The position numbers were made by a program, and so were the translations under genes. From the NCBI GenBank assembly GCA_017882285.1, contig JADGPS010000033.1, positions 1 to 35,466 of the forward strand: 35,466 bases of DNA. The letters run 5' to 3'. This document shows, piece after piece, positions 930-34,375 of this stretch. Within the stretch, counting starts at the first letter, position 1. Every line of letters starts with the position of its first letter. Below the pieces are notes generated by a model. The model was not told the DNA's origin. It did not search any database and saw only the letters and a list, made by a program, of their open reading frames with translations. The stretch is from Paludibacter sp. Its GTDB lineage: Bacteria > Bacteroidota > Bacteroidia > Bacteroidales > Paludibacteraceae.

Positions 930-1483
930 AAAATATCAATATAAAAGGAATTCCTACGGAAGAATTCAACGACAATGAGTATCTTGAAAACTACATTAAA
1001 GAACTGGAAGCCAATGGTGTAAATGTTGTTTTGAGTAAACTGGATGATTTAATCAACTGGGGTCGTTCTAACTCGGTTTGGCCGTTGATTTTCGCTACAA
1101 GTTGTTGTGGTATTGAGTTTATGGCTGCTGCAGCCGCTCATCACGATATTGCCCGCTTTGGTATGGAAGTTACGCGTAACAGTCCTCGTCAGGCCGATTT
1201 AATGATAGTTGCCGGAACTATGGTTCACAAAATGGCTCCGCTTATCCGTCGTGTATACGACCAAATGGCTGAACCTAAATATGTATTGGCCATGGGTGCC
1301 TGTGCTATCTCGGGTGGTCCGTTTGTCAATTCATACCATGTGGTCAACGGTGTTGACCAGATTATTCCGGTGGATGTGTATGTTCCGGGTTGTCCTCCAC
1401 GCCCGGAATCGTTGTTTTATGGCTTGATGCAATTGCAGCGTAAGATTAAGGTAGAACAATTTCTGGGAAATAAACAAAGATAG
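920..1483 (+). CDS. nuoB: NADH-quinone oxidoreductase subunit B
   Basis: NuoB is the peripheral subunit that carries the terminal 4Fe-4S cluster N2, which passes electrons to quinone. The four ligands are visible: tandem Cys62-Cys63 in SCCGIEF, Cys129 in GACAISGG and Cys159 in PGCPPRPE. At 187 residues it has a typical length, with about 40 poorly conserved residues before the core. The ATG lies inside the last codons of nuoA. The stop codon TAG at 1481-1483 is also the first unit of a heptamer repeat tract, so the repeat begins exactly at the gene end. Confidence 0.97.
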
Positions 1484-1515
1484 TTGATAGTTTATAGTTG
1501 GTAGTTTATAGTTCA
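1481..1515 (+). repeat. Five tandem TAGTTNN heptamers
   Basis: Five perfectly phased 7-mers follow one another: TAGTTGA, TAGTTTA, TAGTTGG, TAGTTTA, TAGTTCA. The first unit contains the nuoB stop codon. A second five-copy tract of the same family lies at 3295-3329 after nuoCD. Confidence 0.85.
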
Positions 1516-1520
1516 GAAAA

Positions 1521-1605
1521 CAACCACAAAGTGGTTGAATATGAATAACCCTCAGTGAAACTGGGGGATGAAAAGACCCAACAAACCACAACCCCGGAGG
1601 GGTTG
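1521..1605. repeat. Three consecutive REP-like hairpins
   Basis: Three short hairpins follow one another in the nuoB-nuoCD spacer. First, CAACCAC/GTGGTTG with loop AAA (1521-1537). Second, CCCTCAGT/ACTGGGGG with loop GAA and one G.T wobble (1549-1567). Third, CAACCCC/GGGGTTG with loop GGA (1589-1605). The first and third share the CAACC...GGTTG frame. This resembles REP-type intergenic elements and may block mRNA decay between cistrons. No transposase lies nearby. Confidence 0.75.
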
Positions 1606-1620
1606 AACATAGGAAAGTTA

Positions 1621-1659
1621 GACATTGGATTTAGACTTAAAGAAAGACATTCGACATAT
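1621..1659 (+). repeat. GACATNN heptamer tract before nuoCD
   Basis: Degenerate 7-mers GACATTG, GACTTAA, GACATTC and GACATAT lie in the 40 nt before nuoCD, with short interruptions. The last ends 5 nt before the start codon. Related units (GACATAA, GACTTTA, GACTAAA) precede nuoJ. Confidence 0.55.
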
Positions 1660-1664
1660 ATATA

Positions 1665-3293
1665 ATGGAAAAAATAAAAGAGTTAATACTTACAACTGTA
1701 CCAGAGGCTGTTATTGAACAAAAGCAAAAGCTGACAGTAACAGTTACTTACGACAAGTTGCATCTGTTGGCAAAAACGCTGAAAGAGAATGCAGCATTGC
1801 CTTTTGACACGCTGGTATTTTTAATTGGTATGGACCGTGGAGAAGAACTGGGTGTAAACTATCTGCTTTCTCCGTCTAGCGATCTTTCGAAAGAAATCGT
1901 TTTGAAAACGGGAACCACCGACCGCGAAAATCCTTTGTTGTATTCCGTTACCGACTTGTTTGAAACAGCACACTACAACGAACGTGAAGTGTTTGCATTA
2001 TTCGGAATCCGTTTTATCAACAATCCGGATATGCGCAAGTTCTTTCTGAACGGCGATTGGGTTGGTTATCCATTCCGTAAAGACTACGATACAAATCCCG
2101 AACTGAATCCGCTTTCGATCGAAAGTAAAGATATTATTGACATTGCACCACGTATTATGGAAGTTGATGGCAAACTGGTTGAAGAAGAAGTCAACATCTT
2201 TGGAGAAGACGATTATATTATCAATATAGGTCCGCAACACCCTGCCACACACGGAGTAATGCATTTCCGCACATCTTTGGATGGAGAAATTGTGAAGAAA
2301 ATTGATATACACAGCGGTTATATCCACCGTGGCATTGAAAAACTAAGCGAAGCTCTTACTTATCCACAAATTCTTCACTTTACCGACCGTCTGGATTACC
2401 TTTCTGCAAACATTAACCGTCACGGGTTGTGTATGTGTGTGGAAAAAGCCACCGAAATTGAAGTTCCGGAACGGGCACAATATATCCGTACCATTATGGA
2501 TGAATTGAACCGCATGGATTCACACTTATTGGCATGGGCATGCCAAACTAATGACCTTGGTGCAACAACCGCCTTTATCTACGGTATGCGTGAACGTGAA
2601 ATTATCCTTGATATTTTCGAAAAAACCTGCGGCGGACGTTTGATTATCAATCAAAACGTGATTGGTGGCGTGATGTTCGATATTTATGCCGATTTCCAGA
2701 AAGACGTGAAAGCGTTCATTATCTATATGCGCGATAAACTAAAAGAATACGACCGTTTCTTCTCGCACAACGTGATTGCTTTGGGTCGTATGATTGGAAT
2801 TGGTAATCTTTCTAAAGAAGATACCATCAGCTATGCTGTAACAGGTCCTGCCGGACGTGGTTCAGGTTGGTCTTGCGATATTCGTAAACATATTCCTTAC
2901 GCACTTTACGATAAAGTGGATTTCAAAGAAGTAATCCGTACAGAAGGTGATTCGTATGCACGTTACCTGAACCGTTTGGATGAAATTGAACAATCGCTTC
3001 ATATTATAGAACAATTGATTGACAATATTCCTGAAGGTGATATTTGTGCCAAAACAAAAGCTATTATACGTCTTCCTGAAGGTGAATTTTATTCACGCGT
3101 TGAAGCTTGCCGAGGTGAATTTGGTGTATTTATCGAAAGCCGTGGAGACAAATTCCCATACCGTTTGAAATTCCGTTCACCTTCTATGGCACTTGTATCG
3201 GCAATGCCGTTGATCTGTAAAAACGAGAAATTATCTGACTTTATCGGTATTGGTGGTTCTATGGACTATGTAATTCCTGATATTGACAGATAA
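1665..3293 (+). CDS. nuoCD: NADH-quinone oxidoreductase subunit C/D fusion
   Basis: This 542-residue protein fuses the 30-kDa (NuoC) and 49-kDa (NuoD) subunits, which together form the quinone-reducing core of complex I. NuoC occupies about 1-160. Its signature region, including GIRF, DWVGYPFRKD and EREVF, is at 107-141. A position that is usually Asp in the NuoC signature (Y-D-L/M-F-G) is Ala111 here. NuoD starts near residue 185, with GPQHPATHG at 189-197, the quinone-site histidine loop, and ends in the family-typical acidic DIDR. The fusion is common in Bacteroidota and enterobacteria. The next gene is nuoH, so nuoE, nuoF and nuoG are missing from their usual place. Confidence 0.96.
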   Translation: MEKIKELILTTVPEAVIEQKQKLTVTVTYDKLHLLAKTLKENAALPFDTLVFLIGMDRGEELGVNYLLSPSSDLSKEIVLKTGTTDRENPLLYSVTDLFETAHYNEREVFALFGIRFINNPDMRKFFLNGDWVGYPFRKDYDTNPELNPLSIESKDIIDIAPRIMEVDGKLVEEEVNIFGEDDYIINIGPQHPATHGVMHFRTSLDGEIVKKIDIHSGYIHRGIEKLSEALTYPQILHFTDRLDYLSANINRHGLCMCVEKATEIEVPERAQYIRTIMDELNRMDSHLLAWACQTNDLGATTAFIYGMREREIILDIFEKTCGGRLIINQNVIGGVMFDIYADFQKDVKAFIIYMRDKLKEYDRFFSHNVIALGRMIGIGNLSKEDTISYAVTGPAGRGSGWSCDIRKHIPYALYDKVDFKEVIRTEGDSYARYLNRLDEIEQSLHIIEQLIDNIPEGDICAKTKAIIRLPEGEFYSRVEACRGEFGVFIESRGDKFPYRLKFRSPSMALVSAMPLICKNEKLSDFIGIGGSMDYVIPDIDR

Positions 3294-3294
3294 T

Positions 3295-3329
3295 TAGTCG
3301 GTAGTTTATAGTTGGTAGTCGGTAGTTGC
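3295..3329 (+). repeat. Five tandem TAGTYNN heptamers
   Basis: Five phased 7-mers follow nuoCD: TAGTCGG, TAGTTTA, TAGTTGG, TAGTCGG, TAGTTGC. This is the same family and the same copy number as the tract at 1481-1515, although the units are in a different order. Confidence 0.85.
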
Positions 3330-3344
3330 CTCCTGCATTATTAA

Positions 3345-3380
3345 AATTCGTGTAATTCGTTTTAATTCGAGAAATTCGTA
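3345..3380 (+). repeat. Four AATTCGNNN repeats before nuoH
   Basis: Four copies of AATTCG begin at 3345, 3354, 3364 and 3373, a spacing of 9, 10 and 9 nt. The tract ends 5 nt before the nuoH ATG. A two-unit relative (AATTTGTAA, AATTCGTAT) lies at 26009-26026 before ugd. Confidence 0.75.
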
Positions 3381-3385
3381 CATAT

Positions 3386-4507
3386 ATGATATTAAATTAT
3401 TCGCAACCTTTAGAAATTACAAACCTGACAAGCTGGTTAGACACTACACTAAGAAGCAGTATGTCGGAGTTTTGGGTATTATTGATTGAATTTGTTTTGG
3501 TTGGCGTTGTTTTGTTGGCTGCTTATGCGGTAATTGCTTTGATTCTTATTTATGCCGAACGTAAGATCACCGCCTTCTTTCAGGCACGTTACGGACCGAA
3601 CCGCGTTGGTAAATGGGGGCTATTGCAGAGTGTTGCCGACATGATTAAGATTTTGTTGAAAGAAATAATAAAGATCAATCGTTCGGATCGTTTCTTATTC
3701 TTTGCAGCTCCGGTCTTTATGATTGTGGCTTCGATGCTTACATTTGGAGCAATTCCTTTCGGGAAAGGACTTAACGCTATCGATTTTAATATCGGCGTAT
3801 TGTATGTAACAGCCGTTTCTTCATTGGGAATTATTGGTGTGTTATTAGCAGGTTGGTCAAGTAACAATAAATACTCCATGATTGGTGCTATGCGAAGCGG
3901 TGCCCAATTCGTAAGTTACGAACTTTCTGCCGGATTTGCTTTGATGACAATCGTTGTATTGGCAGGAACCATGCAATTCTCGACCATGATTGAAGGTCAA
4001 CGGTATTGCTGGAATTTATTCAACGGACATATCTCTTCCATGATTGCTTTTATAATCTATTTAATTTCCGGCCATGCCGAAACAAACCGTGGTCCTTTCG
4101 ACTTACCGGAAGCAGAATCGGAATTAACTGCCGGTTACCACACAGAATACTCGGGACTTCAATTCGGTTTCTACTACTTAGCCGAATACCTGAATATGTT
4201 TATCATTGCGTCTATAGCTACAACTGTATTTTTAGGTGGTTATATGCCAATTCAGGTTCATGGTTGGGATGCATTCAACGGCATTATGGCTATGATTCCT
4301 ACCTATGTTTGGTTCTTCGGAAAAACAGCCGTTTTAATCTTCTTGAGTTTATGGGTTCGTTGGTCATTCCCACGTTTACGCATCGACCAGTTATTGAATC
4401 TGGAATGGAAATACCTATTGCCAATCAACTTAGTAAACATTGTATTGATGGTAATTTTAGTATTGACAGGATTGACATTGACAGACTTATTTCCGGGATT
4501 GTTTTAA
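3386..4507 (+). CDS. nuoH: NADH-quinone oxidoreductase subunit H
   Basis: NuoH is the membrane subunit that forms the quinone-access chamber between the peripheral and membrane arms. At 373 residues it has about eight hydrophobic segments. It also has the conserved motifs [20 protein letters not shown] (near 56-75) and [20 protein letters not shown] in the third cytoplasmic loop, whose acidic residues couple quinone reduction to proton movement. The ATG follows the AATTCG repeat tract directly. Length and motifs are normal for the family. Confidence 0.96.
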
Positions 4508-4546
4508 AATGTCCCCTAACCCCCTGAAATGGAACTAAAAGAAAGC

Positions 4547-4575
4547 AATTGTAAATTGTAAATGATTAAATTGTA
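4547..4575 (+). repeat. AATTGTA repeat tract before nuoI
   Basis: Units AATTGTA, AATTGTA, AATGATTA and AATTGTA run with 7, 7, 8 and 7 nt periods and end 10 nt before the nuoI ATG. The 18 nt at 4554-4571 occur in exact inverted orientation at 6085-6102 before nuoL. Just upstream, 4513-4525 carries CCCCTAACCCCCT, a fragment resembling the nuoL-nuoM elements. Confidence 0.8.
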
Positions 4576-4585
4576 AATAAAAAAG

Positions 4586-5104
4586 ATGAGTTCAGTATTA
4601 AAATATTTTTCAGGCTTATTTACCGGCATCAGGTCATTGCTTACAGGGATGGGTGAAACCTGGAAAGAGTTGTGGACAAAAAAAGTAACACAACAATACC
4701 CGGAAAACAGAGACACGTTGGTTATTTCAGATCGTTTCCGTTGCGAGCTAACCATGCCACACGACGAAAACAACGAACATGCCTGTACGGCTTGCGGTAT
4801 TTGTCAAATAAATTGTCCGAACGGAACAATTGTTGTGACACCAAAGATGATAGAAACCGAAGATGGTAAACAGAAAAAAATTCTAGATACACACAAATGG
4901 GACTTGGGAATGTGTACATTTTGCAATCTTTGTGTAATTACCTGTCCTTCGAATGCTCTCAAATTTGAAAACACATTCGAAAATGCAGTATTTAACCGTG
5001 AAAAACTCAAACAACAATTGAATCACGAAGGTTCAAAAATGAGAGAGAAAAAGAAAGAACCGGTTGCTCCAAAAGTAGAAGAAAAAGAAACCCCAAACGC
5101 TTAA
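4586..5104 (+). CDS. nuoI: NADH-quinone oxidoreductase subunit I
   Basis: NuoI is the ferredoxin-like subunit holding 4Fe-4S clusters N6a and N6b on the path to N2. Both binding motifs are complete: Cys67-70-73-77 and Cys110-113-116-120, each CxxCxxCxxxCP. The 172-residue protein ends in a charged Lys/Glu tail (about 148-172) that does not look conserved. With NuoE, F and G missing, NuoI is the most exposed Fe-S subunit in the operon and the likely entry point for electrons from an external donor. That role is inferred. Confidence 0.95.
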   Translation: MSSVLKYFSGLFTGIRSLLTGMGETWKELWTKKVTQQYPENRDTLVISDRFRCELTMPHDENNEHACTACGICQINCPNGTIVVTPKMIETEDGKQKKILDTHKWDLGMCTFCNLCVITCPSNALKFENTFENAVFNREKLKQQLNHEGSKMREKKKEPVAPKVEEKETPNA

Positions 5105-5135
5105 TTTTAGAATTACAAAAGACGTAAAAACTCTT

Positions 5136-5156
5136 GACATAAGACTTTAGACTAAA
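5136..5156 (+). repeat. Three GACNTAA-type heptamers before nuoJ
   Basis: GACATAA, GACTTTA and GACTAAA are three phased 7-mers ending 7 nt before the nuoJ ATG. An isolated GACGTAA lies at 5121-5127. The units resemble the GACATNN tract before nuoCD. Confidence 0.6.
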
Positions 5157-5163
5157 AAAAAAT

Positions 5164-5667
5164 ATGGCACAACAAATTATATTTTTCGTATTAGCGGCAA
5201 TTATAGCCATCTTTTCGATTCTGGCAGTGACTGCAAAACAAATTATTCGCTCTGCTACCTATCTGTTGTTTGTATTATTGGCCACAGCCGGTTTATACCT
5301 GTTGTTGGGTTACAATTATTTATTTGCTGTTCAAATTGCAGTGTATGCAGGTGGAGTAATGGTGTTGTTTATTTTTGCAATTTTACTGACAAACCGTCCG
5401 GGTGAAAACGTAAAAACAGAATTAGCTGTCCGCCGGGTGGCTGCAGGTGCAACTGCTTTAGTCGGTTTAGCTTTCTGCGGACATGTTATTTATTGGAATA
5501 TCAAAAAGGTTTCAGAATTGGCTGTTCAGGCTGATATTACTCCGCAACAGTTGGGTCATTCCATGTTGGGAACCGACAAATACCAGTATTTATTACCTTT
5601 CGAAGTTATCAGTATTTTACTGTTAGCTTGTATTGTGGGTGCTATTATGATTGCAAGAAAACGATAA
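5164..5667 (+). CDS. nuoJ: NADH-quinone oxidoreductase subunit J
   Basis: NuoJ is a five-helix membrane subunit next to the quinone chamber whose third helix takes part in conformational coupling. The 167-residue product is almost wholly hydrophobic. It carries the family signature AVYAGGVMVLFIFAILLT in the third helix (about 59-76) and an early TYLLFVLLATAGLYLLLG segment. It ends in a short basic tail. Position between nuoI and nuoK is canonical. Confidence 0.94.
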   Translation: MAQQIIFFVLAAIIAIFSILAVTAKQIIRSATYLLFVLLATAGLYLLLGYNYLFAVQIAVYAGGVMVLFIFAILLTNRPGENVKTELAVRRVAAGATALVGLAFCGHVIYWNIKKVSELAVQADITPQQLGHSMLGTDKYQYLLPFEVISILLLACIVGAIMIARKR

Positions 5668-5673
5668 TGTGAT

Positions 5674-5721
5674 AGTAAACAAGTAGACAAGTTAACGAAT
5701 AAACAACTAAACGAATCAACA
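5674..5721 (+). repeat. Six tandem octamers (ANTNNACR) before nuoK
   Basis: Six phased 8-mers: AGTAAACA, AGTAGACA, AGTTAACG, AATAAACA, ACTAAACG, AATCAACA. The consensus is ANTNNACR. The tract ends 9 nt before the nuoK ATG. The same family fills the nuoM-nuoN spacer (nine units) and the lolA-like/trxB spacer (three units). Confidence 0.85.
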
Positions 5722-5730
5722 ATAAAATAT

Positions 5731-6072
5731 ATGAGTGATTTATTAACTAATTTATTATCAGGACCGGTGCCTATTGAAGCATACTTAGGTGTAAGTCTGA
5801 TTATGTTCTTTGCCGGAGTATATGGCTTTTTATCGCGCAAAAGCATGCTGATGATTCTGATTTCTATCGAACTTATGCTTAATGCTGCCGATATCAACTT
5901 TGTGGTTTTCAACCGCTATTTGTTTCCGGGACATTTGGAAGGTTTTTACTTTGCATTATTCACCATTGCCATTGCGGCGTGTGAAACTGCTGTTGCTATT
6001 GCGATTATTATTAATATCTATCGCAATCTGACAAGCGTGGAAGTAGGCAACTTAGACCAAATGAAAGAATAA
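5731..6072 (+). CDS. nuoK: NADH-quinone oxidoreductase subunit K
   Basis: NuoK is the MrpC-like membrane subunit that forms part of a proton channel. The 113 residues contain three transmembrane helices. The two buried glutamates that are functionally important in this family appear in SIELMLNA (helix 2) and CETAVAIAI (helix 3). An N-terminal stretch of about 10 residues precedes the usual start point. The position between nuoJ and nuoL is standard. Confidence 0.95.
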   Translation: MSDLLTNLLSGPVPIEAYLGVSLIMFFAGVYGFLSRKSMLMILISIELMLNAADINFVVFNRYLFPGHLEGFYFALFTIAIAACETAVAIAIIINIYRNLTSVEVGNLDQMKE

Positions 6073-6076
6073 AAAA

Positions 6077-6112
6077 CATTGACCATTTAATCATTTACAA
6101 TTGACAGTCAAC
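6077..6112 (+). repeat. CATTTAC/AATTGAC repeat tract before nuoL
   Basis: Units CATTGAC, CATTTAAT, CATTTAC, AATTGAC and AGTCAAC run with 7-8 nt periods and end 8 nt before the nuoL ATG. The segment 6085-6102 is an exact reverse complement of 4554-4571 before nuoI. Confidence 0.7.
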
Positions 6113-6120
6113 AAATTATT

Positions 6121-8022
6121 ATGCAATATACATTATTGATTTTAGTACTTCCGCTTCTTAGTTTCATTGTGTTGGGACTGGTGGATTCGAAATGGAAGCC
6201 CAAGGTTGCCGGAACAATAGGAACAGTGGTTTTAGGTATCATCACTGCACTTTCGTATTTCGCAGCATGGGAATATTTTTCCATGCACAGAATTGCGGGT
6301 GTTTATGAAAAAATAATTCCTTTCAATATCGAATGGCTGCGTTTCACTGACTATTTACATATCAATTTAGGTATCTTACTCGATCCTATTTCGGTGATGA
6401 TGTTGGTAGTAATTACTACGGTATCATTTATGGTAAACATTTACAGTCTTGGATACATGGTGAACGAAAAAGGATTTGAACGCTATTATGCTTTCTTATC
6501 GCTCTTTACTTTCTCCATGCTGGGACTGGTTGTTGCTACCAATATCTTCCAAATGTATATTTTTTGGGAATTAGTGGGTGTTTCGTCATACTTATTAATT
6601 GGATTCTATTATACAAAACCGTCAGCAGTTGCCGCTGCCAAAAAAGCGTTTATCGTTACCCGTTTTGCCGATTTAGGCTTTTTGATTGGTATTCTCGTTC
6701 TTTCGTTCTATACCAAAACTTTCGATTTCGGTATCCTGACTTCGGGTGATACAAGCGTTTTTGCAAGCACAGTCGGAGCATCTTTTATGGGAATTTCGGT
6801 TATGAGTTGGGCATTGGGACTGATATTTATCGGTGGTGCCGGTAAATCAGCCATGTTCCCTTTACAAATCTGGTTACCAGACGCAATGGAAGGTCCAACA
6901 CCGGTTTCTGCTTTGATTCATGCTGCAACCATGGTAGTTGCCGGTGTATTTTTAGTGGCTCGACTGTTTCCACTTTATGTTGTTTATTCACCGGAAGTAT
7001 TACACGGAATTGCTTATGTTGGTGCTTTCACTTCTCTGTTCGCGGCAATTATTGCTTGTGTACAAACCGATATTAAACGCGTACTTGCTTTTTCTACCAT
7101 ATCACAAATTGGTTTTATGATGGTTGGTCTAGGTGTTTCGGGTAATGGTGGTCATGAAGGAGTAGGTTACATGGCTTCTATGTTCCACTTGTTCACACAT
7201 GCCATGTTCAAAGCTTTGTTATTCCTTGGAGCCGGTTCGGTTATTCACGCTGTTCGCAGCAACGAAATGAGCCACATGGGTGGACTTCGGAAATATATGC
7301 CAATCACGAACATTACTTTTCTTATTGCATGTCTGGCAATTGCCGGTATTCCCCCCTTCTCCGGATTTTTCAGTAAGGACGAAATACTTTCGGCCTGTTA
7401 TGAATTCAGCCCATACATGGGTGCAACCATGACTTTCATTGCTGGTCTGACTGCTTTCTATATGTTCCGTTTGTATTTCAATATCTTCTGGGGTAAAGAA
7501 CACAAACATCAGCACACCCCACACGAATCTCCATTTGCCATGGCATTGCCGCTTGTTTTTCTCGCAACTGTAACCGTTTTAGCAGGCTGGATTCCTTTTG
7601 GTCATTTTGTTACCAGCGATCGTGCCAATTATGATATTCATTTAGATTTTACTGTTGCAACCATAAGCGTATTAATTGCAGTATGTTCAATTACTTTGGC
7701 AATAATCATGTACCGCAAAGAAAGTAAAGTTCCAAAAAGACTGGCAACTACTTTTTCCGGTTTACACAAAGCAGCAACCAATCGTTTCTATATCGACGAA
7801 GTATATATATTCATTACCAAGAAAATTATTTTCAATAATATATCACTTCCTTTAGCCTGGTTCGACCGTCATGTGATTGACGCTACTATGAACGGCATGG
7901 CAGGTACCACGCAATGGGTATCGGTTAAAATTAAAGGATTCCAATCTGGTCAGGTACAACAATATGCGTATGTATTCCTGTTGGGAACATTGATTATCAC
8001 TGCATTGGTACTAATTTTTTAG
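6121..8022 (+). CDS. nuoL: NADH-quinone oxidoreductase subunit L
   Basis: NuoL is the distal antiporter-like proton-pumping subunit with the long lateral helix. The 633-residue product has the expected 14-16 hydrophobic helices. It has the conserved helix-5 glutamate in FWELVGVSSYLLIGFYY, the broken-helix segment GKSAMFPLQIWLPDAMEGPT followed by ALIHAATMV, and GIPPFSGFFSKDEIL. A C-terminal amphipathic segment and final hydrophobic helix (about 612-632) fit the lateral helix and its anchor. Intact and of normal length. Confidence 0.97.
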   Translation: MQYTLLILVLPLLSFIVLGLVDSKWKPKVAGTIGTVVLGIITALSYFAAWEYFSMHRIAGVYEKIIPFNIEWLRFTDYLHINLGILLDPISVMMLVVITTVSFMVNIYSLGYMVNEKGFERYYAFLSLFTFSMLGLVVATNIFQMYIFWELVGVSSYLLIGFYYTKPSAVAAAKKAFIVTRFADLGFLIGILVLSFYTKTFDFGILTSGDTSVFASTVGASFMGISVMSWALGLIFIGGAGKSAMFPLQIWLPDAMEGPTPVSALIHAATMVVAGVFLVARLFPLYVVYSPEVLHGIAYVGAFTSLFAAIIACVQTDIKRVLAFSTISQIGFMMVGLGVSGNGGHEGVGYMASMFHLFTHAMFKALLFLGAGSVIHAVRSNEMSHMGGLRKYMPITNITFLIACLAIAGIPPFSGFFSKDEILSACYEFSPYMGATMTFIAGLTAFYMFRLYFNIFWGKEHKHQHTPHESPFAMALPLVFLATVTVLAGWIPFGHFVTSDRANYDIHLDFTVATISVLIAVCSITLAIIMYRKESKVPKRLATTFSGLHKAATNRFYIDEVYIFITKKIIFNNISLPLAWFDRHVIDATMNGMAGTTQWVSVKIKGFQSGQVQQYAYVFLLGTLIITALVLIF

Positions 8023-8106
8023 ACCCCTAACCCCTAAAGGGGATAAGAATTGGTGGTTAAAACAAAACAATACTAACATCTCAACTCCCCTTTAGGGGAT
8101 GGGGGT
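8023..8106. repeat. Inverted pair of CCCCTAAAGGGG elements, nuoL-nuoM spacer
   Basis: ACCCCTAACCCCTAAAGGGGA (8023-8043) and its near reverse complement (8086-8106) flank 42 nt of spacer, with three mismatches over 21 nt. Each copy also contains its own palindrome, CCCCTAAAGGGG or CCCCTTTAGGGG. The pair could fold into one long stem or two small hairpins. The right-hand copy contains an in-frame ATG (8099) that would add seven residues to NuoM. I treat that ATG as part of the repeat. Confidence 0.75.
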
Positions 8107-8119
8107 AATTTTATATTAT

Positions 8120-9601
8120 ATGAACTTTTTATCCTTATTCGTTCTCATTCCGGTTTTAATGATGTTGGGCTTGTTCGTCTCGAACAGTCGTAAGCAAATT
8201 CAATTCATCACAGCCACGGGAGCATCGCTTTTACTTATTCTATCGGGTATCATCACCTATATGTACCTCACCGAACGAGCAGCAGGAAATGTAGCAGAAA
8301 TGCTTTTTACTGCCGATACCGTTTGGTATGCTCCTTTCAATATCCACTATTCGGTTGGCGTTGATGGTATATCGGTAGCCATGTTGATCCTGTCGTCTAT
8401 CATAGTTTTCACTGGAGTTTTTGCTTCGTGGAAAATTGATCCGCTTCCGAAAGAGTTCTTTTTATGGTATAGCTTATTATCGATCGGTGTTTACGGATTC
8501 TTTATCTCAACCGATTTGTTTACCATGTTTATGTACTATGAAATTGCCCTGATTCCAATGTACTTGTTGATTGGTATCTGGGGAACAGGTAGAAAAGAAT
8601 ATTCTGCCATGAAACTGACATTAATGTTGATGGGCGGTTCGGCACTATTATTAGTTGGTATTTTAGGAATATATTATACTTCAGGTGCAACCAGCATGAA
8701 TTTACTGGAAATTGCCAAAATGAAGATTCCACTAACAGCACAATATTATTTTTTTCCACTAACATTTCTGGGATTTGGTGTATTAGGAGCTTTGTTTCCT
8801 TTCCATACATGGTCTCCCGACGGTCATGCCTCCGCACCTACTGCGGTTTCGATGTTACACGCAGGTGTATTGATGAAACTGGGAGGTTACGGTTGTTTCC
8901 GTGTAGCCATGTATTTAATGCCTCAGGCTGCTCACGAAATGGCATGGTTTTTCTTAATCTTAACCGGTATCAGTGTGGTATACGGAGCATTTGCTGCTAT
9001 TCATCAAACCGACTTGAAATATATCAATGCTTATTCTTCGGTTAGCCACTGTGGATTGGTACTTTTTGCCATTCTGATGATGAACGAAACTGCAGCCACA
9101 GGTGCCATATTACAAATGCTTTCGCATGGTTTAATGACAGCCTTATTCTTTGCTTTGATTGGAATGATTTACGGACGGACTCATACACGACTAATTACTG
9201 AGATGGGTGGATTGATGAAAGTTCTTCCGTTTTTGGGTGTTAGTTATGTAATTGCCGGTTTGGCTTCGTTGGGATTACCCGGATTAAGTGGTTTTGTTGC
9301 TGAAATGACCATTTTCTTTGGTTCATTCCAACATACTGATACTTTCCATAGGGTAATGACAATTATAGCTTGTATGTCGATTGTTATTACGGCCGTATAT
9401 ATTTTGCGTGTAGTTGGGAAGATTTTATTTGGAGCAATACAAGATGCACATCATGAGCATTTGACCGATGCTACCTGGTTCGAACGGATTTCAGTTGTTA
9501 CTTTGATTATTGCCATTGTTGCTATTGGTTCTGCACCATTCTGGATTTCAGGCATGATTCACGAAAGTGTTATTCCAGTAATTAGTCATTTAGCAAAATA
9601 A
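8120..9601 (+). CDS. nuoM: NADH-quinone oxidoreductase subunit M
   Basis: NuoM is the central antiporter-like proton-pumping subunit. The 493-residue product has about 14 hydrophobic helices. The family residues are present: the helix-5 glutamate in YYEIALIPMYLLIGIWG, the broken-helix motif FPFHTWSPDGHASAPTAVS followed by MLHAGVLMKLGGYG, and GLPGLSGFVAE. I chose the ATG at 8120 because it gives a normal hydrophobic N-terminus (MNFLSLF). The upstream in-frame ATG at 8099 lies inside an intergenic repeat. Confidence 0.95.
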   Translation: MNFLSLFVLIPVLMMLGLFVSNSRKQIQFITATGASLLLILSGIITYMYLTERAAGNVAEMLFTADTVWYAPFNIHYSVGVDGISVAMLILSSIIVFTGVFASWKIDPLPKEFFLWYSLLSIGVYGFFISTDLFTMFMYYEIALIPMYLLIGIWGTGRKEYSAMKLTLMLMGGSALLLVGILGIYYTSGATSMNLLEIAKMKIPLTAQYYFFPLTFLGFGVLGALFPFHTWSPDGHASAPTAVSMLHAGVLMKLGGYGCFRVAMYLMPQAAHEMAWFFLILTGISVVYGAFAAIHQTDLKYINAYSSVSHCGLVLFAILMMNETAATGAILQMLSHGLMTALFFALIGMIYGRTHTRLITEMGGLMKVLPFLGVSYVIAGLASLGLPGLSGFVAEMTIFFGSFQHTDTFHRVMTIIACMSIVITAVYILRVVGKILFGAIQDAHHEHLTDATWFERISVVTLIIAIVAIGSAPFWISGMIHESVIPVISHLAK

Positions 9602-9614
9602 AAGCAGACAAGAA

Positions 9615-9686
9615 AGTAGACAAATTGACGTGTAAACGAGTTCACAACTTACCGATTCAACAATTAAACGAATAAACAATTCAACA
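9615..9686 (+). repeat. Nine tandem octamers (ANTNNACR) before nuoN
   Basis: Nine phased 8-mers run without a break: AGTAGACA, AATTGACG, TGTAAACG, AGTTCACA, ACTTACCG, ATTCAACA, ATTAAACG, AATAAACA, ATTCAACA. Another unit, AGCAGACA, lies four bases out of phase at 9603-9610. The tract ends 4 nt before the nuoN ATG. Confidence 0.88.
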
Positions 9687-9690
9687 AGAT

Positions 9691-19308: not shown

Positions 19309-19405
19309 TTTGTTTTTCTAAAAATAGGATTAAAATTGATTTCAAGTATAATTTCAAATTTAAACTCACAAAACGGTTTTATAGTATTAATTTCATATCA
19401 TTTTG

Positions 19406-19437
19406 CAAATTTACTTCAAATATTCAGAAATACCAAT
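19406..19437 (-). promoter_or_regulatory. Candidate promoter of lipoprotein-thioredoxin operon
   Basis: On the minus strand ATTG (19434-19437) and TAAATTTG (19406-19413) are spaced 20 bp, a good -33/-7 pair for Bacteroidetes. Transcription would start near 19399, about 90 nt before the lipoprotein start codon. Confidence 0.5.
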
Positions 19438-19595
19438 AAATATAGAATTTTGGAATTCAAAAGTATTTTTAGTTATGAAAAATATAAATAATCTCAAGTA
19501 ACTTTATTAAAATATTTAAAAAAGTGAAATTTAAAAAAAACACATGATTTTGAAAGCAATTTTATTAACTCAATGTATATATACTATATTTTGCT

Positions 19596-19603
19596 TATCT
19601 TTG
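19596..19603 (+). promoter_or_regulatory. Candidate promoter of the polysaccharide export operon
   Basis: TATCTTTG is a perfect TAnnTTTG -7 box. It predicts a start near 19610 and a leader of about 22 nt before the first export gene. No good -33 TTTG is visible at 18-20 bp, only AATG. Confidence 0.5.
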
Positions 19604-19631
19604 TTTCAAATTTCTCAAAAAATTCCTACCA

Positions 19632-20432
19632 ATGCGAATCTCAATTTATAGGTTATTATTCCTTTTGATGTTAGTTATACAGTTGACTTCATGTATCACT
19701 ACATATCAAACAAATTATTTACAAACTCAAAAAAAAATTACTTCTACCTATAATGATACATTTTCTTATCAGGATTACCGATTAAAAGAAGGTGACAGAC
19801 TATATGTTCAGGTTTATTCTACTGATGATAAAACAAATATACTTTTTAACGGATCGACGAATTCCGGATCTCAAATTATGTCAAATTCCAATGGGTCAAA
19901 TGACAACTTAGATTTATATTCTTATTTGGTTCAAACTAATGGCAGCATTACTTTTCCAATAGTTGGAGAAATCTATGTTAAAAACAAAACGATACGCAAA
20001 ACTAAGGAAATAATTGAAAATGCTATTAAGCCAATTCTAAAAATAAATTCTGTTGATGTTCGTATGGTTGGACGAACTTTTAGTATAATTGGATCAGGTA
20101 AATCAGGTCGTTTCTCATTTCCTAGAGAAAAGGTTAATATTTATCAGGCATTAGCAATGGCCGGTGATTTAGGATTATACACCGACCGAAGTAAAATAAA
20201 GATTTTACGTGCTACTGAAAAAGGGAACGTTATAAAAACATTTGATGTTAGAAACGTAAATATAATTAATTCAGAATTTTATTACCTTGAGCCGGATGAT
20301 ATTATTTTCCTTCAACCATTAAATCAACAATTTTTCAGGGCTACTACCTTTTGGACAACCCTTTCCACAGTCATCACAACTGTTTCGCTTGGAGTCGGTA
20401 TATATTCTTTAATTATGCCTCGTCCTAAATAG
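19632..20432 (+). CDS. Wza-like polysaccharide export lipoprotein (first copy)
   Basis: This 266-residue outer-membrane lipoprotein has its lipobox at Cys21 (QLTSC). It has the Poly_export domain starting at DYRLKEGDRLYVQVYS (about 49-64) and an SLBB-like region with GRTFSIIGSGKSG and IYQALAMAGDLG. A C-terminal hydrophobic helix (about 240-262) could cross the outer membrane. Such proteins form the ring through which capsule or exopolysaccharide leaves the cell, in partnership with a Wzc-type co-polymerase. That partner is encoded two genes downstream. It opens the cluster and has its own candidate promoter. Confidence 0.9.
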   Translation: MRISIYRLLFLLMLVIQLTSCITTYQTNYLQTQKKITSTYNDTFSYQDYRLKEGDRLYVQVYSTDDKTNILFNGSTNSGSQIMSNSNGSNDNLDLYSYLVQTNGSITFPIVGEIYVKNKTIRKTKEIIENAIKPILKINSVDVRMVGRTFSIIGSGKSGRFSFPREKVNIYQALAMAGDLGLYTDRSKIKILRATEKGNVIKTFDVRNVNIINSEFYYLEPDDIIFLQPLNQQFFRATTFWTTLSTVITTVSLGVGIYSLIMPRPK

Positions 20433-20479
20433 TCTGAAATTATATAAAATTTCTGTTATAATCTGTTTATTAATGATTT

Positions 20480-21223
20480 ATGAAAAATATAATTAGAATA
20501 TTTGTACTTTTTATAGTGTTAATTTCACTATCATCGTGTTATAATTATAAAAGTTTACAATTATTACAAGAAGAACACTCATCACCGGTTTATAACAAAT
20601 CAAATTACTCCGACTATCGAATTCAGGTAAATGATGAAATAATATATCGACTCATCACTTCGGATGAGACCATTTCGAAATTGATTTCGCCTCAAACCGG
20701 CGGATCAAGTCAAAATATGATGTCTTATCGGGTATATAAAGATAGTACAATTGATTTACCTTTTATTTCGCATATACCGATTGCCGGACTTACAATATCT
20801 GAAGCTACAAAAGTAATTGAAAATCGATTTAAAGAAATAATTCCTGATGCCGTAGTTAAATTGAGCCTTTCCAATAAAACATTTACAATTTTCGGAGATG
20901 CTGGTTCCGGTATTTTCCCAATTTACAAGGAAAAGTTGACTATTTTTCAAGCATTGTCAATGTCAGGTGATTTTAATGAAACGAGTGATAGAAAGCATAT
21001 TCGAATTATTCGAGACACTGAAAAAGGAACTCAGATTTTGGAATTTGACATTCGACCAAAAAGCATTATAGACTCAAAATATTATTACATTTATCCGAAT
21101 GATATTATTTATATTCAACGTGATTTTTCGAGTTTCTACAAAGTTAATAGTTATTCGGCTCTTTTAGGAGTATTCTCTTTTTCATTGTCTTTATTATTTA
21201 GCGTTTTAACGTATACAAAATAA
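20480..21223 (+). CDS. Wza-like polysaccharide export lipoprotein (second copy)
   Basis: This 247-residue lipoprotein (lipobox Cys20, LSSC) is a tandem paralogue of the preceding gene. It has the same layout: SDYRIQVNDEIIYRL at about 43-57, KTFTIFGDAGSG, IFQALSMSGDFN and DTEKGTQILEFDIR, then a hydrophobic C-terminal helix (about 224-243). The two align along their whole length but have diverged well beyond recent duplication. The pair could form a mixed ring or serve alternative glycans. The gene lies 47 bp after its paralogue and 49 bp before the Wzc-like gene. Confidence 0.88.
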   Translation: MKNIIRIFVLFIVLISLSSCYNYKSLQLLQEEHSSPVYNKSNYSDYRIQVNDEIIYRLITSDETISKLISPQTGGSSQNMMSYRVYKDSTIDLPFISHIPIAGLTISEATKVIENRFKEIIPDAVVKLSLSNKTFTIFGDAGSGIFPIYKEKLTIFQALSMSGDFNETSDRKHIRIIRDTEKGTQILEFDIRPKSIIDSKYYYIYPNDIIYIQRDFSSFYKVNSYSALLGVFSFSLSLLFSVLTYTK

Positions 21224-21272
21224 AAGAAATTAAAAAATAGATTTATTATCTGATTTAAAATAAAGAGAAAAC

Positions 21273-23675
21273 ATGGAACAAAATAATCATGAGAAAAATC
21301 CATTTTTAGAAGAGGAAGAATCAAGTTTTGATATCATGGAATGGCTGTCCTACTTTCTTCATCATTGGTATTTATTTGTTATTGGTGTTATTTTATCGTT
21401 AGGATTAGCCTATTTAGAAAACAGAACTTGGCTGCCTTCTTTTCAGACTGCAGGCACAGTGATGATTGAAGAAAACAGGGTAATTCCGAATGGATCTCAG
21501 GCACTTATGCAAGGGTTTGGTGTTGATGCAGGATTTAGGAATGTGAATAATCAAGTTATTATGTTTGGGTCTTATGACCTTGTTTGTAAGGTAGTTGACA
21601 GCATTCCATTTCTAAAAGTTGATTATATTACAAAAGGTAATTTTAAATCACATAATTTATATAAAACTTCACCTATTATTATACAATCTGATTATGTCTC
21701 GCCCGAAGCATTTGATTTGCTTTTTAAAATAAGATTACATTCTAATGGTACTTATACGATTACAATTGAAGATAATAAATTTTATAGTAGTTTAAAATTA
21801 AATGGTCGATATAACCAACCAATTCAACACAACTTGTTTTTTATCACGGTAAAAAATGCAAACAAATATATGGGGAATATGGAAATGTTTTTTCAATTCC
21901 GTTCAAGAGAGTCTTTAGTTTCAGATTTTTCTTCCCGTCTAAATTTAGGATTTGTTACAGAAGGATCATCTGTGTTGCAAATTTCATTAGTTAGTGAAAC
22001 CCCTGATCGTGATATTGATTTCATTAACAAACTGTGTGAAATGTTCTTGGCTGATAATCTGGATAGAAAAAATGATGCAGCTAATAAAACTATTAAATTT
22101 ATTAATGAACAATTAGGAATTGTATCAAAATCTTTAGTCTTATCTGAAGGTGAGATGACTACTTTCAGACAAAGTAATAAAATAGTCGATGTTTCGAGTC
22201 ACACCAGCGAATTACTGGGTAAAGCTACCAAATTTGATGCTCAACAAGCAGACCTAAAACTACGCGAAACGTATTTGAATTATTTAACTAAATATCTCAA
22301 AACAAATTTGGCTGATGGAGCCATAATTGCTCCATCCAGTTTGGGTCTAAATGAGCCGTTATTAATGGCTGTTGTTCAACAAATCAATGAATTATATAAT
22401 CTTCGTTCGGAAGTGACCGAAAAAAACATGTATTATGCTAAATACACCAAGCAAATTGAAAATGCCAAGTTGACAGTTTTGGAAGTGACTAAGAATATGC
22501 GTGCAGCACTCGATATTGAAAAAAATGATTTTTATAAACGATTATCTGTTGTAAATAAGGAGATAGATGAGTTACCGAAAAAAGAATTGGAAATGATTGC
22601 CATCGAACGTAAATATAAAATGGATGATAATTATTATACTTTCTTTCTTCAAAAACGTGCTGAGTCGGAAATTTTACAAGCATCCAATACTCCTGATAAT
22701 AATATTCTGGATAAAGCAAGAGTTTTATCCGTTACAAATTCTAATAAAAAATCAAAAACAACGCTTTTGTTTCTGCTTTTTGGCGTTTTGATACCAGCAA
22801 TTATTATCGTCGTTAAAGAATTGTCAAACAATACAATACGTTCGACAAAAGATATTGAGAAAAATTCAGTATTCCCCTTAATTGGTATTATTGGTCATAC
22901 AAAAAGTGATGAACCTCTTTTAGTTGCAAAAAATCCACGTTCAGCATTTGCAGAAATGTTCCGGGTAATTCGAACACGAATTGAATTTATCGTTCAGCGA
23001 AAAACTAATATTGTATCATTGATAACTTCCACTGAATCAGGAGATGGTAAAACCTATTTTTCTATTAATCTGGCTTCCATTTATTCAATGACAAGTAAAA
23101 AGACTATTTTAGTTGACATGGATATCAGAAAACCAACAATTAATCAACGATTTAACATTAATCAATCAAATGGCGTCACAAATTACTTAGTTGGTCAATG
23201 TACGCTTGATGAAGCAATTATTCAATTACCAAAAGTTGATTTTGACATTTTACCTTCCGGTTCTATTCCACCAAATCCGGGTGAATTAATCAGATCTGAA
23301 AAATTAATTGAAATGTTTCAAGAATTACGTAGACGGTATGACTATATTATTATTGACTCAAGTCCAATTGGTATAGTAACCGATGCATATTCATTAGCAT
23401 ACTTATCTGATGTGAATTTATTTATTGTCCGTAACGAAAAAACAAGTAAGACTTTCTTCAAAAAATTAAGTGCTCAATTAAAACAGGATAATATACCAAA
23501 ATTATACACAATATTCAACGACGTGTTGAATGATGGTGGCAGAAGCTCGAAATATAATCGTTACAAATATAATTATAACTATGGATATAATTATGGTTAT
23601 GGCTATTACGGAAAAAGGAAAAAGGAAAAAACAGATAAGTATTTTCAATACTATGAAAATAATTCTGATCTGTAA
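21273..23675 (+). CDS. Wzc-type co-polymerase and tyrosine autokinase
   Basis: This inner-membrane protein of 800 residues controls polysaccharide chain length and export. It has a Wzz-type N-terminus with a first transmembrane helix near 32-48, a large periplasmic coiled-coil region (about 270-480) and a second helix near 496-514. A cytoplasmic BY-kinase domain follows: Walker A SGDGKT (Lys593), Walker A' VDMD (Asp615, Asp617) and Walker B IIID (Asp695). The C-terminal tail has 13 tyrosines in about 42 residues, the autophosphorylation cluster typical of these kinases. It pairs with the two Wza-like lipoproteins immediately upstream. Confidence 0.93.
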   Translation: MEQNNHEKNPFLEEEESSFDIMEWLSYFLHHWYLFVIGVILSLGLAYLENRTWLPSFQTAGTVMIEENRVIPNGSQALMQGFGVDAGFRNVNNQVIMFGSYDLVCKVVDSIPFLKVDYITKGNFKSHNLYKTSPIIIQSDYVSPEAFDLLFKIRLHSNGTYTITIEDNKFYSSLKLNGRYNQPIQHNLFFITVKNANKYMGNMEMFFQFRSRESLVSDFSSRLNLGFVTEGSSVLQISLVSETPDRDIDFINKLCEMFLADNLDRKNDAANKTIKFINEQLGIVSKSLVLSEGEMTTFRQSNKIVDVSSHTSELLGKATKFDAQQADLKLRETYLNYLTKYLKTNLADGAIIAPSSLGLNEPLLMAVVQQINELYNLRSEVTEKNMYYAKYTKQIENAKLTVLEVTKNMRAALDIEKNDFYKRLSVVNKEIDELPKKELEMIAIERKYKMDDNYYTFFLQKRAESEILQASNTPDNNILDKARVLSVTNSNKKSKTTLLFLLFGVLIPAIIIVVKELSNNTIRSTKDIEKNSVFPLIGIIGHTKSDEPLLVAKNPRSAFAEMFRVIRTRIEFIVQRKTNIVSLITSTESGDGKTYFSINLASIYSMTSKKTILVDMDIRKPTINQRFNINQSNGVTNYLVGQCTLDEAIIQLPKVDFDILPSGSIPPNPGELIRSEKLIEMFQELRRRYDYIIIDSSPIGIVTDAYSLAYLSDVNLFIVRNEKTSKTFFKKLSAQLKQDNIPKLYTIFNDVLNDGGRSSKYNRYKYNYNYGYNYGYGYYGKRKKEKTDKYFQYYENNSDL

Positions 23676-23744
23676 GAATTAGAAGGATTTATAAAAAATG
23701 TTATCAAATTTTAATTGAAAAAACAATTTATTTCATACCTAAAA

Positions 23745-24893
23745 ATGAAAAAAGTAGCTTTAATTACTGGAATAACCGGACAAGATGGTGCATATTTAGC
23801 CGAGCTGTTATTGAAAAAAGACTATATTGTACATGGGTTGAAACGTCGTTCATCGCTTTTTAATACCGATCGTATCGATCATTTGTATCAAGACCCGCAT
23901 GTTGACAACAGAAATTTTGTATTGCATTACGGAGATATGACTGACTCGATGAATATCACCCGAATTATTCAAGAAACTCAACCTGATGAAATATACAATT
24001 TGGCTGCAATGAGTCACGTAAAAGTAAGTTTCGACACGCCCGAATATACAGCTAATGCTGACGGTATTGGTACTTTGCGCTTACTCGAAGCAGTACGTTT
24101 GCTCAATTTAACTAATAAAACGCGTATTTACCAGGCTTCTACTTCTGAATTATACGGATTGGTTCAAGAAGTCCCACAAAAAGAAACTACTCCATTCTAT
24201 CCACGTTCGCCTTATGCTGTGGCTAAAATGTATGCTTACTGGATTACCGTAAATTATCGCGAAGCTTACGGTCTTCATGCCAGTAACGGAATTTTGTTCA
24301 ACCACGAATCACCATTAAGAGGGGAAACCTTTGTAACCCGCAAAATTACACGTGCTGCTGCCCGTATTGCTATGGGTATGCAAAGCAAATTGTTTTTAGG
24401 CAATCTTTCGTCGAAACGTGACTGGGGGCATGCAAAAGACTATGTGCGTGCCATGTACTTAATTTTACAACAAGACGAGCCAAGCGATTATGTAATTGCA
24501 ACAGGAGTTACAACTGAAGTGCGTGAATTTGTGCGTATGGCATTTTCCGAAATTGGTCTTTATATTGACTTTAAAGGTGATGGTATTGATGAGAAAGGTT
24601 ATATAGGAAGAATTGACGAAGCATTATTTACACAACATGTTGGTGCTGAGTTTTTGGAAAATGTTCGTGCTATAAAAGCTCCGATAGTGGAAGTTGATGC
24701 CAACTATTTCCGACCAACAGAAGTGGATTTATTAATTGGTGATGCCACAAAATCACGTACCAGACTGAACTGGATACCTGAATACGATCTGAAAGCCCTG
24801 GTAGAAGATATGATGCGATCGGACGTTAAACTCATGAAAAAAGAAACCTATCTGAAAGAGGGTGGTTTCAGGGTGCTGAATTATTTCGAATAA
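23745..24893 (+). CDS. gmd: GDP-mannose 4,6-dehydratase
   Basis: Gmd converts GDP-D-mannose to GDP-4-keto-6-deoxy-D-mannose, the first step to GDP-L-fucose. The 382-residue short-chain dehydrogenase has the nucleotide-binding TGITGQDG (8-15), the catalytic STSE (132-135), and the Tyr157-x3-Lys161 pair in [23 protein letters not shown] is the family substrate loop. The frame is open upstream from a TTG at 23715, but the ATG at 23745 gives the normal N-terminus and is used. The next gene encodes the following enzyme of the pathway. Confidence 0.96.
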
Positions 24894-24938
24894 ATTACTC
24901 AGGAGACAAGCATTTTTGTCTCTGACATTATAATAATC

Positions 24939-26000: not shown

Positions 26001-26033
26001 TTTGGTTTAATTTGTAAAATTCGTATATTAAAA

Positions 26034-27377: not shown

Positions 27378-27465
27378 TTTCCAATATAACGAACTGAAAT
27401 ACAATACTAAAAATTTTACAAATATTATTTTTTTTGGACTGTAATAAAAAACAATTTAATAAAGG

Positions 27466-31140: not shown

Positions 31141-31175
31141 AATTGTGAATTTTGAATTCATAATTATGAATTGAT
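31141..31175 (+). repeat. Five tandem AATTNNN heptamers before ftsK
   Basis: AATTGTG, AATTTTG, AATTCAT, AATTATG and AATTGAT are five phased 7-mers ending 5 nt before the ftsK ATG. A partial unit (AATTTA) precedes them. Units two to five create a perfect 18-bp palindrome, AATTCATAATTATGAATT, at 31155-31172. Confidence 0.85.
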
Positions 31176-34340: not shown

Positions 34341-34364
34341 AATAGACCAATTAACTAATCAACG
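34341..34364 (+). repeat. Three octamers (ANTNNACN) before trxB
   Basis: AATAGACC, AATTAACT and AATCAACG are three phased 8-mers that start two bases after the LolA-like stop codon and end 11 nt before the trxB ATG. AATCAACG differs by one base from a unit in the nuoJ-nuoK tract. Confidence 0.7.
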
Positions 34365-34375
34365 AAATATTATCA

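Follow-up and report, generated by a model that had tools for sequence, protein, structure and literature searches.

The stretch of DNA analyzed here (the window; 35,466 nt, contig JADGPS010000033.1 of the Paludibacter sp. assembly GCA_017882285.1) carries nuoA, B, CD, H, I, J, K, L, M, and N, a potassium transporter gene, ftsK, a LolA-like gene, and a gene for a pyridine nucleotide-disulphide oxidoreductase compatible with trxB. These assignments uphold the gene names in an earlier reading of the DNA made from its letters alone (the sequence-only reading). The gaps between these genes contain tracts of short, degenerate tandem repeats, and these tracts are members of a class of degenerate 7- and 8-nt arrays (a few with 9-nt units) found across the genome at gene edges, mainly in same-strand gaps of 30–150 nt.

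Within the window, each gap was scored for the best of periods 7, 8, and 9 against 500 dinucleotide shuffles; P values (whole gap / last 60 nt) refer to each gap taken singly and are uncorrected for the number of gaps, and all features are given on the forward (+) strand. The nuoB–nuoCD gap (P.002/.27) holds a TAGTTNA heptamer array, of a word family counted across the genus below, that starts at the nuoB stop codon (1484..1513; period 7, score 10.5, P.002) and a weak GACATNN repeat before nuoCD (1646..1657; score 5.0, last-60-nt P.27) that alone is not above chance. The nuoCD–nuoH gap (P.004/.022) holds a TAGTYGG/TAGTTTA heptamer array at its stop edge (3302..3326; score 10.5, P.004) and, before nuoH, a AATTCGNNN array of a 9-nt unit with a period-9 core (3345..3379; last-60-nt P.022). 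In both gaps the strongest tract lies on the stop-codon side and is absent from the sequence-only reading. An AATTGTA heptamer array precedes nuoI (4547..4578, core 4547–4563; P.026/.050); a GACNTNA heptamer repeat, weak alone, precedes nuoJ (5136..5153; score 6.0, P.23/.22), with similar words in two other sampled loci (L023 and L025); an octamer array with AAC every 8 nt precedes nuoK (5674..5720; score 11.5, P.008/.004); a weak CATTTA repeat of period 8 precedes nuoL (6084..6097; P.096/.096); and an octamer array of ATTCAACA/ATTAAACG precedes nuoN (9655..9687; score 10.0, P.006/.006). Beyond the nuo genes, an AATTNTG heptamer array stands before ftsK in a gap to an opposite-strand gene (31141..31158; score 8.5, P.048/.020), and an AACYAATY octamer repeat, of the octamer family counted across the genus below, stands between the LolA-like gene and the trxB-like gene, before the latter (34346..34366; score 5.5, P.074/.046). 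The nuoL–nuoM gap (P.016/.51, gap taken to 8098) carries an inverted pair, with a left arm of CCCCTAA heptamers (8023..8042; tandem part P.016, arm score 13) and a right arm (8087..8106) that contains an ATG at 8099. Because that ATG sits in the repeat arm, the start of nuoM is more likely the in-frame ATG at 8120, to which the leaders of relatives also point.

The sequence-only reading had described nine start-side tracts, each ending a constant 4–11 nt before the next start codon. Five of the nine (nuoH, nuoK, nuoN, ftsK, and trxB) are significant at P <.05 over the last 60 nt and nuoI is borderline, whereas those before nuoCD, nuoJ, and nuoL are singly within chance. The constant spacing is too neat for the window, because the core matches before nuoH, nuoI, nuoL, and ftsK stop 22–25 nt short of the ATG, with only decayed units nearer. 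Unlike the nuo region, the gene cluster at 19.3–28.9 kb (19309–28917; gaps of 33–88 nt), which includes a UDP-sugar dehydrogenase and an AAA_31 ATPase domain, has no significant tract.

The window is contig 21 of a 3.18-Mb, 143-contig draft genome, and by NuoL its nearest named relatives are Bacteroidales, several of them labelled Paludibacter. The genome-wide counts come from 1.165 Mb, about 37% of this genome, including a masked stretch of 2504 N; 895 genes were called with a coding-potential caller built for this analysis, gaps were sorted by type, and a score of at least 10 defined a tract. Tracts of period 7 or 8 occur in 43 of 247 same-strand gaps of 40–150 nt, about one in six, against 0.7 in shuffles; in the same gaps, periods 9 and 10 each occur in 3/247 (0.3 expected) and periods 5 and 6 in none. 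In same-strand gaps of 30–150 nt, the excess over dinucleotide shuffles in three length bins has z of 8.1, 14.9, and 10.8 at lag 7 and of 4.7, 6.4, and 8.0 at lag 8, with echoes at lags 14, 15, 21, and 28 in some bins and no excess at lags 5, 6, 9, or 10. A smaller excess at lag 4 is present in most gap classes, and the 91 gaps of 10–30 nt show no periodicity. Under a column-preserving shuffle, z is 18.4 at lag 7 and 14.0 at lag 8. When only unambiguous starts were admitted and the mismatch cost was set to two other values, periods 7 and 8 appear in 12–33 of 304 gaps (0–0.7 expected) and periods 5, 6, 9, and 10 in 0–3 (0–1.0 expected). Among 69 tracts, 42 have period 7 and 27 have period 8; five unit words gave 125 non-coding matches and 18 coding ones. 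The tandem-tract observation is real and general in this genome: the periodicity is gone after shuffling, the check that the sequence-only reading had proposed, and its unit lengths of 7 and 8 nt extend genome-wide, whereas those of 9 and 10 give little.

Chance, or a low-complexity artifact produced by A/T-rich gaps or by the gene caller, would suit the three of nine claimed window tracts that individually fall within chance. As a general account it is extremely improbable: the signal survives both kinds of shuffle, holds with unambiguous starts only, and is replicated in a congener genome and in the nuo neighborhoods of relatives, while none of 75 gaps of Escherichia coli K-12 contains a tract. 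The provision of stop codons in all frames was also considered as a purpose of the period, and was rejected; tracts with stops in all three frames are enriched equally on both strands (sense.43 vs..17 shuffled, antisense.48 vs..22; 69 tracts) because any period not divisible by three yields them.

Placement was assessed by comparing tract ends with random placement inside the same gaps (3000 trials). The unambiguous-start set combines this genome with G134, a one-contig congener genome of which 400 kb was sampled, and admits only starts at the first in-frame ATG, retaining 834 of 893 same-strand gaps. Within it, 42 of 83 tracts end within 12 nt of the ATG (22.9 ± 3.4 expected; reached in 0/3000 trials) and 24 of 83 end 4–11 nt before it (13.0 ± 3.1 expected; reached in 2/3000). 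A first, smaller set from this genome only, which forms part of the 83 and is not independent of it, gave 32/69 ends within 12 nt (18.8 ± 3.1 expected) and a non-significant 16/69 at 4–11 nt (10.6 ± 2.8). For the relatives' nuo neighborhoods, in which called ATG starts were not limited to the first in-frame ATG, the corresponding counts are 25/51 (14.1 ± 2.7) and 14/51 (7.5 ± 2.4). At stop edges, these tests revealed no clear bias in placement. The preference of tract ends for start codons, the second check proposed by the sequence-only reading, holds both in the sampled genome and in its relatives, and 4–11 nt is a genome-wide preference rather than a constant distance.

Edge rates were counted at score 10 in the 60 nt at each edge, in this genome and G134. 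On the start side, tracts occur at 38/237 edges in gaps of 60–150 nt, 10/210 in gaps of 150–500 nt, and 6/200 divergent ends (Fisher P 1.9e-7); with unambiguous starts, the first two rates are 32/215 and 10/188 (P.0017). Stop-side rates are 24/237 (60–150 nt) and 3/210 (150–500 nt), convergent-gap ends carry tracts in 9/146 cases, and the middles of long gaps in 1/172. A start-region role, as earlier suggested, thus has the preference of tract ends in its favor and the tracts at stop edges and convergent ends against it. The idea that tracts are confined to operon gaps is weakened, as some are found, at a lower edge rate, in gaps between convergent or divergent genes.

Bacteroidota mostly lack Shine-Dalgarno sites. 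In the last 20 nt, the frequency of G is.06 in 59 array leaders and.10 in 244 leaders without an array; predicted folding is −2.61 kcal/mol in the former (n = 59) and −3.59 in a sample of 80 of the latter, each equal to its own shuffles. It speaks against the suggestion that the tracts keep the initiation region unstructured that array leaders, though poor in G and weakly folded, fold no more weakly than their own shuffles. There are 0.15 ATG per 40-nt array leader (0.48 shuffled) and 0.28 per other leader (0.51 shuffled), a rarity that matches the AUG avoidance described for leaders of this phylum in the accessible part of an earlier study (PMC6847099). By eye, the position profiles of the 59 array leaders showed no register of the unit with the ATG or with adenines at −3, −6, −12, or −13.

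The start-codon bias in two data sets, the enrichment in short same-strand gaps, and the better conservation of array leaders (given below) could reflect a dedicated initiation element. In that reading, the repeated unit would offer multiple landing sites to a protein with an OB fold or an RRM, and this protein would deliver ribosomes to internal genes of operons or park them there; candidates would be ribosomal protein bS1, cold-shock proteins, and RRM proteins of the Rbp type. Domain matches in this genome, one to an RRM and three to cold-shock domains, show only that candidate readers exist. Adenines at −12/−13 are described, and a role for bS1 is proposed, in Flavobacterium, according to the portion of the paper available (PMC6847099), and RbpB, an RRM protein of Bacteroides thetaiotaomicron, is described as a global RNA binder in a paper whose accessible text contains neither "tandem" nor "intercistronic" (PMC11697453). 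Against such an element, the words change from genome to genome and from gap to gap (the 69 tracts yield 51 consensus units, some of which closely resemble one another), no register with the ATG was seen, tracts also occur at stop edges and in convergent gaps, and leaders around ribosomal protein L2 lack arrays. Around L2, which was located and whose neighbors' gene names are inferred, leaders are alike in this genome and G134; the latter has a score-10 tract in one gap, upstream of the leader, and the former has none, although arrays would not be expected there anyway because most gaps are shorter than 40 nt. We consider a dedicated initiation element unlikely, and a dedicated translation role of the arrays is no more than possible. 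More doubtful still is a repeat code operating without Shine-Dalgarno pairing, in which a genome-specific RNA-binding protein would read evenly spaced 7/8-nt words before internal genes, with word and reader changing together between species; if true, every genome would have its own initiation dialect.

Two leaders resembling Shine-Dalgarno sites were encountered in the course of these comparisons: TAGGAGGAAAGAAG in the ribosomal protein region of both genomes (L209 and L210/L211), and TTAAGAAGGAGGAAAAAGT in the gap before the ninth called gene of L155, with one base different in G134. An extended Shine-Dalgarno site at rpsU has been described in many Flavobacteriales, in the part of the source available (PMC9976891).

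The distribution of tracts among gap types is similar in G134, where tracts occur in 15/96 same-strand gaps of 25–150 nt, 3/53 of 150–400 nt, 1/29 convergent gaps, and 0/22 divergent gaps. In the nuo surroundings of relatives, grouped by assignments made in this analysis, the lag-7 signal is strongest in Paludibacter-like genomes (z 13.9; tracts in 17/82 gaps), followed by Proteiniphilum and Dysgonomonadaceae (z 8.7; 6/26), Odoribacter/Butyricimonas (z 8.2; 3/36; mean G+C.52), the remaining relatives (z 6.5; 10/120), and Bacteroidaceae (z 2.7; 0/29); in Rikenellaceae, the signal is not specific to period 7 (z 2.6; 0/34). Outside the order, the signal is weak in the samples taken. Twenty genomes drawn from the class have tracts in 2/64 gaps (0.8 expected; lag 7 z 3.1), and of four further, larger samples only G047, one of whose three stretches is shared with the 20-genome draw, shows the signal (z 4.5 at lag 7, one tract in 15 gaps); a signal specific to period 7 is absent from G021, G040, and G110. 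In E. coli, a lag-9 excess was observed in convergent gaps (L202–L205, n = 16; z 8.8).

The unit words are genome dialects. The nuoJ–nuoK gap, for example, holds one octamer array in this genome. In L022 it has a TAGT heptamer array behind the stop, followed by an octamer array of a different word ahead of the start; L070 has an inverted AGTTTGA/TCAAACN pair there, and G134 an ACTACC-type array. The nuoI leader has an AATNGTA rhythm with drifting words in this genome, L022, L025, L030, L031, and L070; the nuoH leader is nearly unchanged in G134 along its start-side stretch and differs in its upstream half; and the nuoN leader of G134 has a like array in a gap of equal length (89 nt). One octamer pattern matches 414 times in G123 (contamination 7), 300 in G127, 23 in this genome, and none in 8 of 20 genus genomes, against 55, 26, and 4 for its backward control in the three genomes named; these are not numbers of sites, because matches overlap within arrays. 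The same pattern is present in 5 of 119 class genomes, including this one. ACTAYMR occurs in 11/20 genus genomes (53 matches in G127 and 42 in this genome; control 0–1 per genome), and TCAAACN in 2/20 (51 in G123; control 7 in G123 and 9 in G122).

Several words also have a fixed orientation toward or away from the nearest gene. In a sample comprising the 1.165 Mb, five further stretches of this genome (four chosen for octamer matches), and G134, towards:away counts are 2:28 for CCCCTAA and 10:1 for ACTAYMR, both alike at starts and stops, 2:11 for AAGA, and 19:2 for the octamer (16:0 at starts, a mixed 3:2 at stops); AATTGTA shows no significant polarity (6:3). The P values for these counts are somewhat too small, because both arms of one gap were counted separately. 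In addition, 122 16-mers are common to at least three gaps, tandem words included, against 3 in one shuffle.

The inverted pair between nuoL and nuoM is likewise one of many. When complementary arms were sought in the two halves of gaps of this genome (score at least 12), they were found in 11/166 gaps of 40–100 nt (0.4 expected from shuffled and 1.0 from cross-paired halves), 17/130 of 100–200 nt (0.5 and 1.4), 5/101 of 200–500 nt (0.6 and 0.5), 11/55 convergent gaps (0 and 0), and 0/75 divergent gaps (0.7 and 1.1); part of these pairs are of the G+C-rich CCCCTAA kind. With any loop length allowed, 41/80 convergent gaps have inverted arms, against 0.3 expected. This restriction to gaps that hold the 3′ end of a gene would fit stems of the upstream gene that terminate transcription or stabilize its RNA. 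Intrinsic terminators are defined by a G+C-rich stem and a T run after the stop codon; the property measured here was the complementarity of the arms. Such 3′-end hairpins would cover the inverted subset only: 50 of 63 tract-bearing gaps have no partner arm, and of the 64 right arms found in same-strand gaps, 30 stop no more than 25 nt short of the following gene. Base pairing points the same way. Across 44 arms, there are 854 Watson–Crick, 18 G-U, 28 A-C, and 52 other positions (expected G-U:A-C ratio.93), and an earlier count with flanks, over 65 arms, gave 117 G-U and 159 A-C. As G-U does not exceed A-C, hairpins in the sense RNA were rejected as the force behind the inverted arms, and the lack of a G-U excess is as expected for pairing made in DNA. 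We regard 3′-end hairpins as a quite improbable explanation of the arrays.

The arms could instead belong to dispersed inverted-repeat elements, of the type of repetitive extragenic palindromes (REPs) or miniature inverted-repeat transposable elements (MITEs), in which hairpins with tandem arms would insert into gaps and single arrays would be the surviving arm. REPs are compact palindromes with a conserved tag at one end, mobilized by a REP-associated tyrosine transposase. In same-strand gaps here, the loop between the arms is at most 10 nt in 28/64 pairs and at least 20 nt in 28/64. Word polarity, the 16-mers common to several gaps, genome-specific word numbers, and the association of inverted pairs with tandem tracts (13/31 vs. 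50/272) all speak for this possibility. Against it, the loops of 12 wide pairs inspected do not resemble one element; the many tract gaps without a partner arm and the mixed octamer polarity at stop edges also fit poorly. A transposase link was examined by domain count. Y1_Tnp domains are present in 6/7 genomes and follow the octamer numbers loosely, with Y1 counts and octamer matches of 10/414, 6/300, 6/0, 5/23, 4/13, 2/0, and 0/0. Dispersed elements of this type are a minority possibility in our judgment, on a par with the initiation element. One Y1 transposase domain of this genome (G000:C142:36100–36444) has an internal stop codon; the four other matches do not. Two further repeats were observed in the window: palindromic pieces around CCACAACCCCGGAGGGGTTG in the nuoB–nuoCD gap (1520–1615), which differ from the tandem arrays, and a dispersed element of ~90 bp (115–204) with seven other partial genome matches at 73–90% identity.

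Heptamer repeats in non-coding DNA are familiar from the short tandemly repeated repetitive (STRR) sequences of cyanobacteria, degenerate heptamer arrays in gaps with lineage-specific words; to our knowledge, their definition does not include a start-codon bias, octamers, or inverted pairing. Set against that general definition, the arrays described here share the heptamer unit and the non-coding location. The nearest precedent is the TAACTGA repeats, heptamer sets most of which lie just before start codons in one Beggiatoaceae genome (MacGregor 2015, PMC4679880); in the available portion of that paper, they are reported from marine Beggiatoaceae and, in small number, from Cyanobacteria and Bacteroidetes, with two sets in Paludibacter propionicigenes, and S1, cold-shock, or Csr-type proteins are proposed for them. 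The sequence-only belief that such repeats elsewhere are untied to start codons does not agree with this precedent. Like the TAACTGA repeats, the present arrays include heptamer direct repeats in gaps that tend to end near start codons, where a Shine-Dalgarno site would be. However, one exact word dominates there and near words are rare, whereas many genome-specific 7/8-nt words occur here, with no single favored word, and some of them keep one polarity or form inverted pairs. A doublet of exactly TAACTGA has no occurrence in 1.165 Mb of this genome and one in 0.4 Mb of G134. The genome dialects, the polarity, and the inverted pairs go beyond the sequence-only reading. The abundant 7-nt simple repeats of Xanthomonas and Nostoc, as described in the part of the source available (PMC4692102), have a quadruplex-forming word, whereas the arrays here are A/T-rich and G-poor. 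REPs, given as palindromes of 20–40 bp in the accessible text of PMC3733652, are similarly dispersed and extragenic, but the arms here are tandem arrays, with loops of 3–152 nt in same-strand gaps. Within open-licence papers, as far as their text was available, no account of multi-word 7/8-nt arrays before Bacteroidota genes was found.

In our view, the best explanation, with about an even chance of being correct, is that the arrays are made and spread at the level of DNA, and are tolerated and in part kept in leaders that need no Shine-Dalgarno site. An origin in DNA is favored because of the many words, the lack of a visible register, the tracts at stop edges and in convergent gaps, the DNA-like pairing, and the genome-wide dialects. 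A unit word may be born by slippage, copied into an opposite arm by hairpin-templated synthesis, and spread to other gaps by some dispersal process, after which its units would homogenize and decay. Operon gaps may retain arrays because a leader in Bacteroidota works without a Shine-Dalgarno site; surviving words would supply an A-rich, G-poor, AUG-free, weakly folded stretch, which may be all that such leaders need, and some array leaders would subsequently be kept by selection. The leader role would then be permissive rather than specific.

Several observations weigh against an origin and spread in DNA with pure tolerance. Some use in initiation is suggested by the position of the arrays at edges, by their start bias, and by the conservation of leaders. 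Pure tolerance explains neither the lead of start edges over stop edges nor the greater likeness of leaders that have arrays in both orthologues, and convergent gaps, expected to be freer, have fewer tracts (9/146 ends). Among orthologous nuo gaps (15 species, 256 pairs), similarity is 7.38 in the last 30 nt (5.05 for non-orthologous gaps) and 3.84 in the first 30 nt (3.54). Leaders with arrays in both orthologues reach 10.09, against 6.57 for non-orthologous array leaders (8.67 vs. 6.72 without nuoH–nuoI; 9.43 vs. 6.10 over 31 species pairs, higher in 21), and leaders without arrays 5.68 against 4.84; these comparisons are not independent draws, because the species are related. The presence of an array at orthologous gaps is marginally shared (100/373 vs. 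89.6 ± 4.9 permuted, reached in 52/1000). Further, local slippage by itself does not readily account for a word that recurs at many gaps within a single genome, and domain counts, in which Y1 transposases track octamer numbers only loosely, identified no dispersal machinery.

The dialects point to a process that places one short word in many gaps of one genome and not in those of its neighbor. For the question of start-codon choice in Bacteroidota, where Shine-Dalgarno pairing is lacking, leaders whose 7/8-nt rhythm persists under a changing word provide a natural set of variants for testing what such leaders require.

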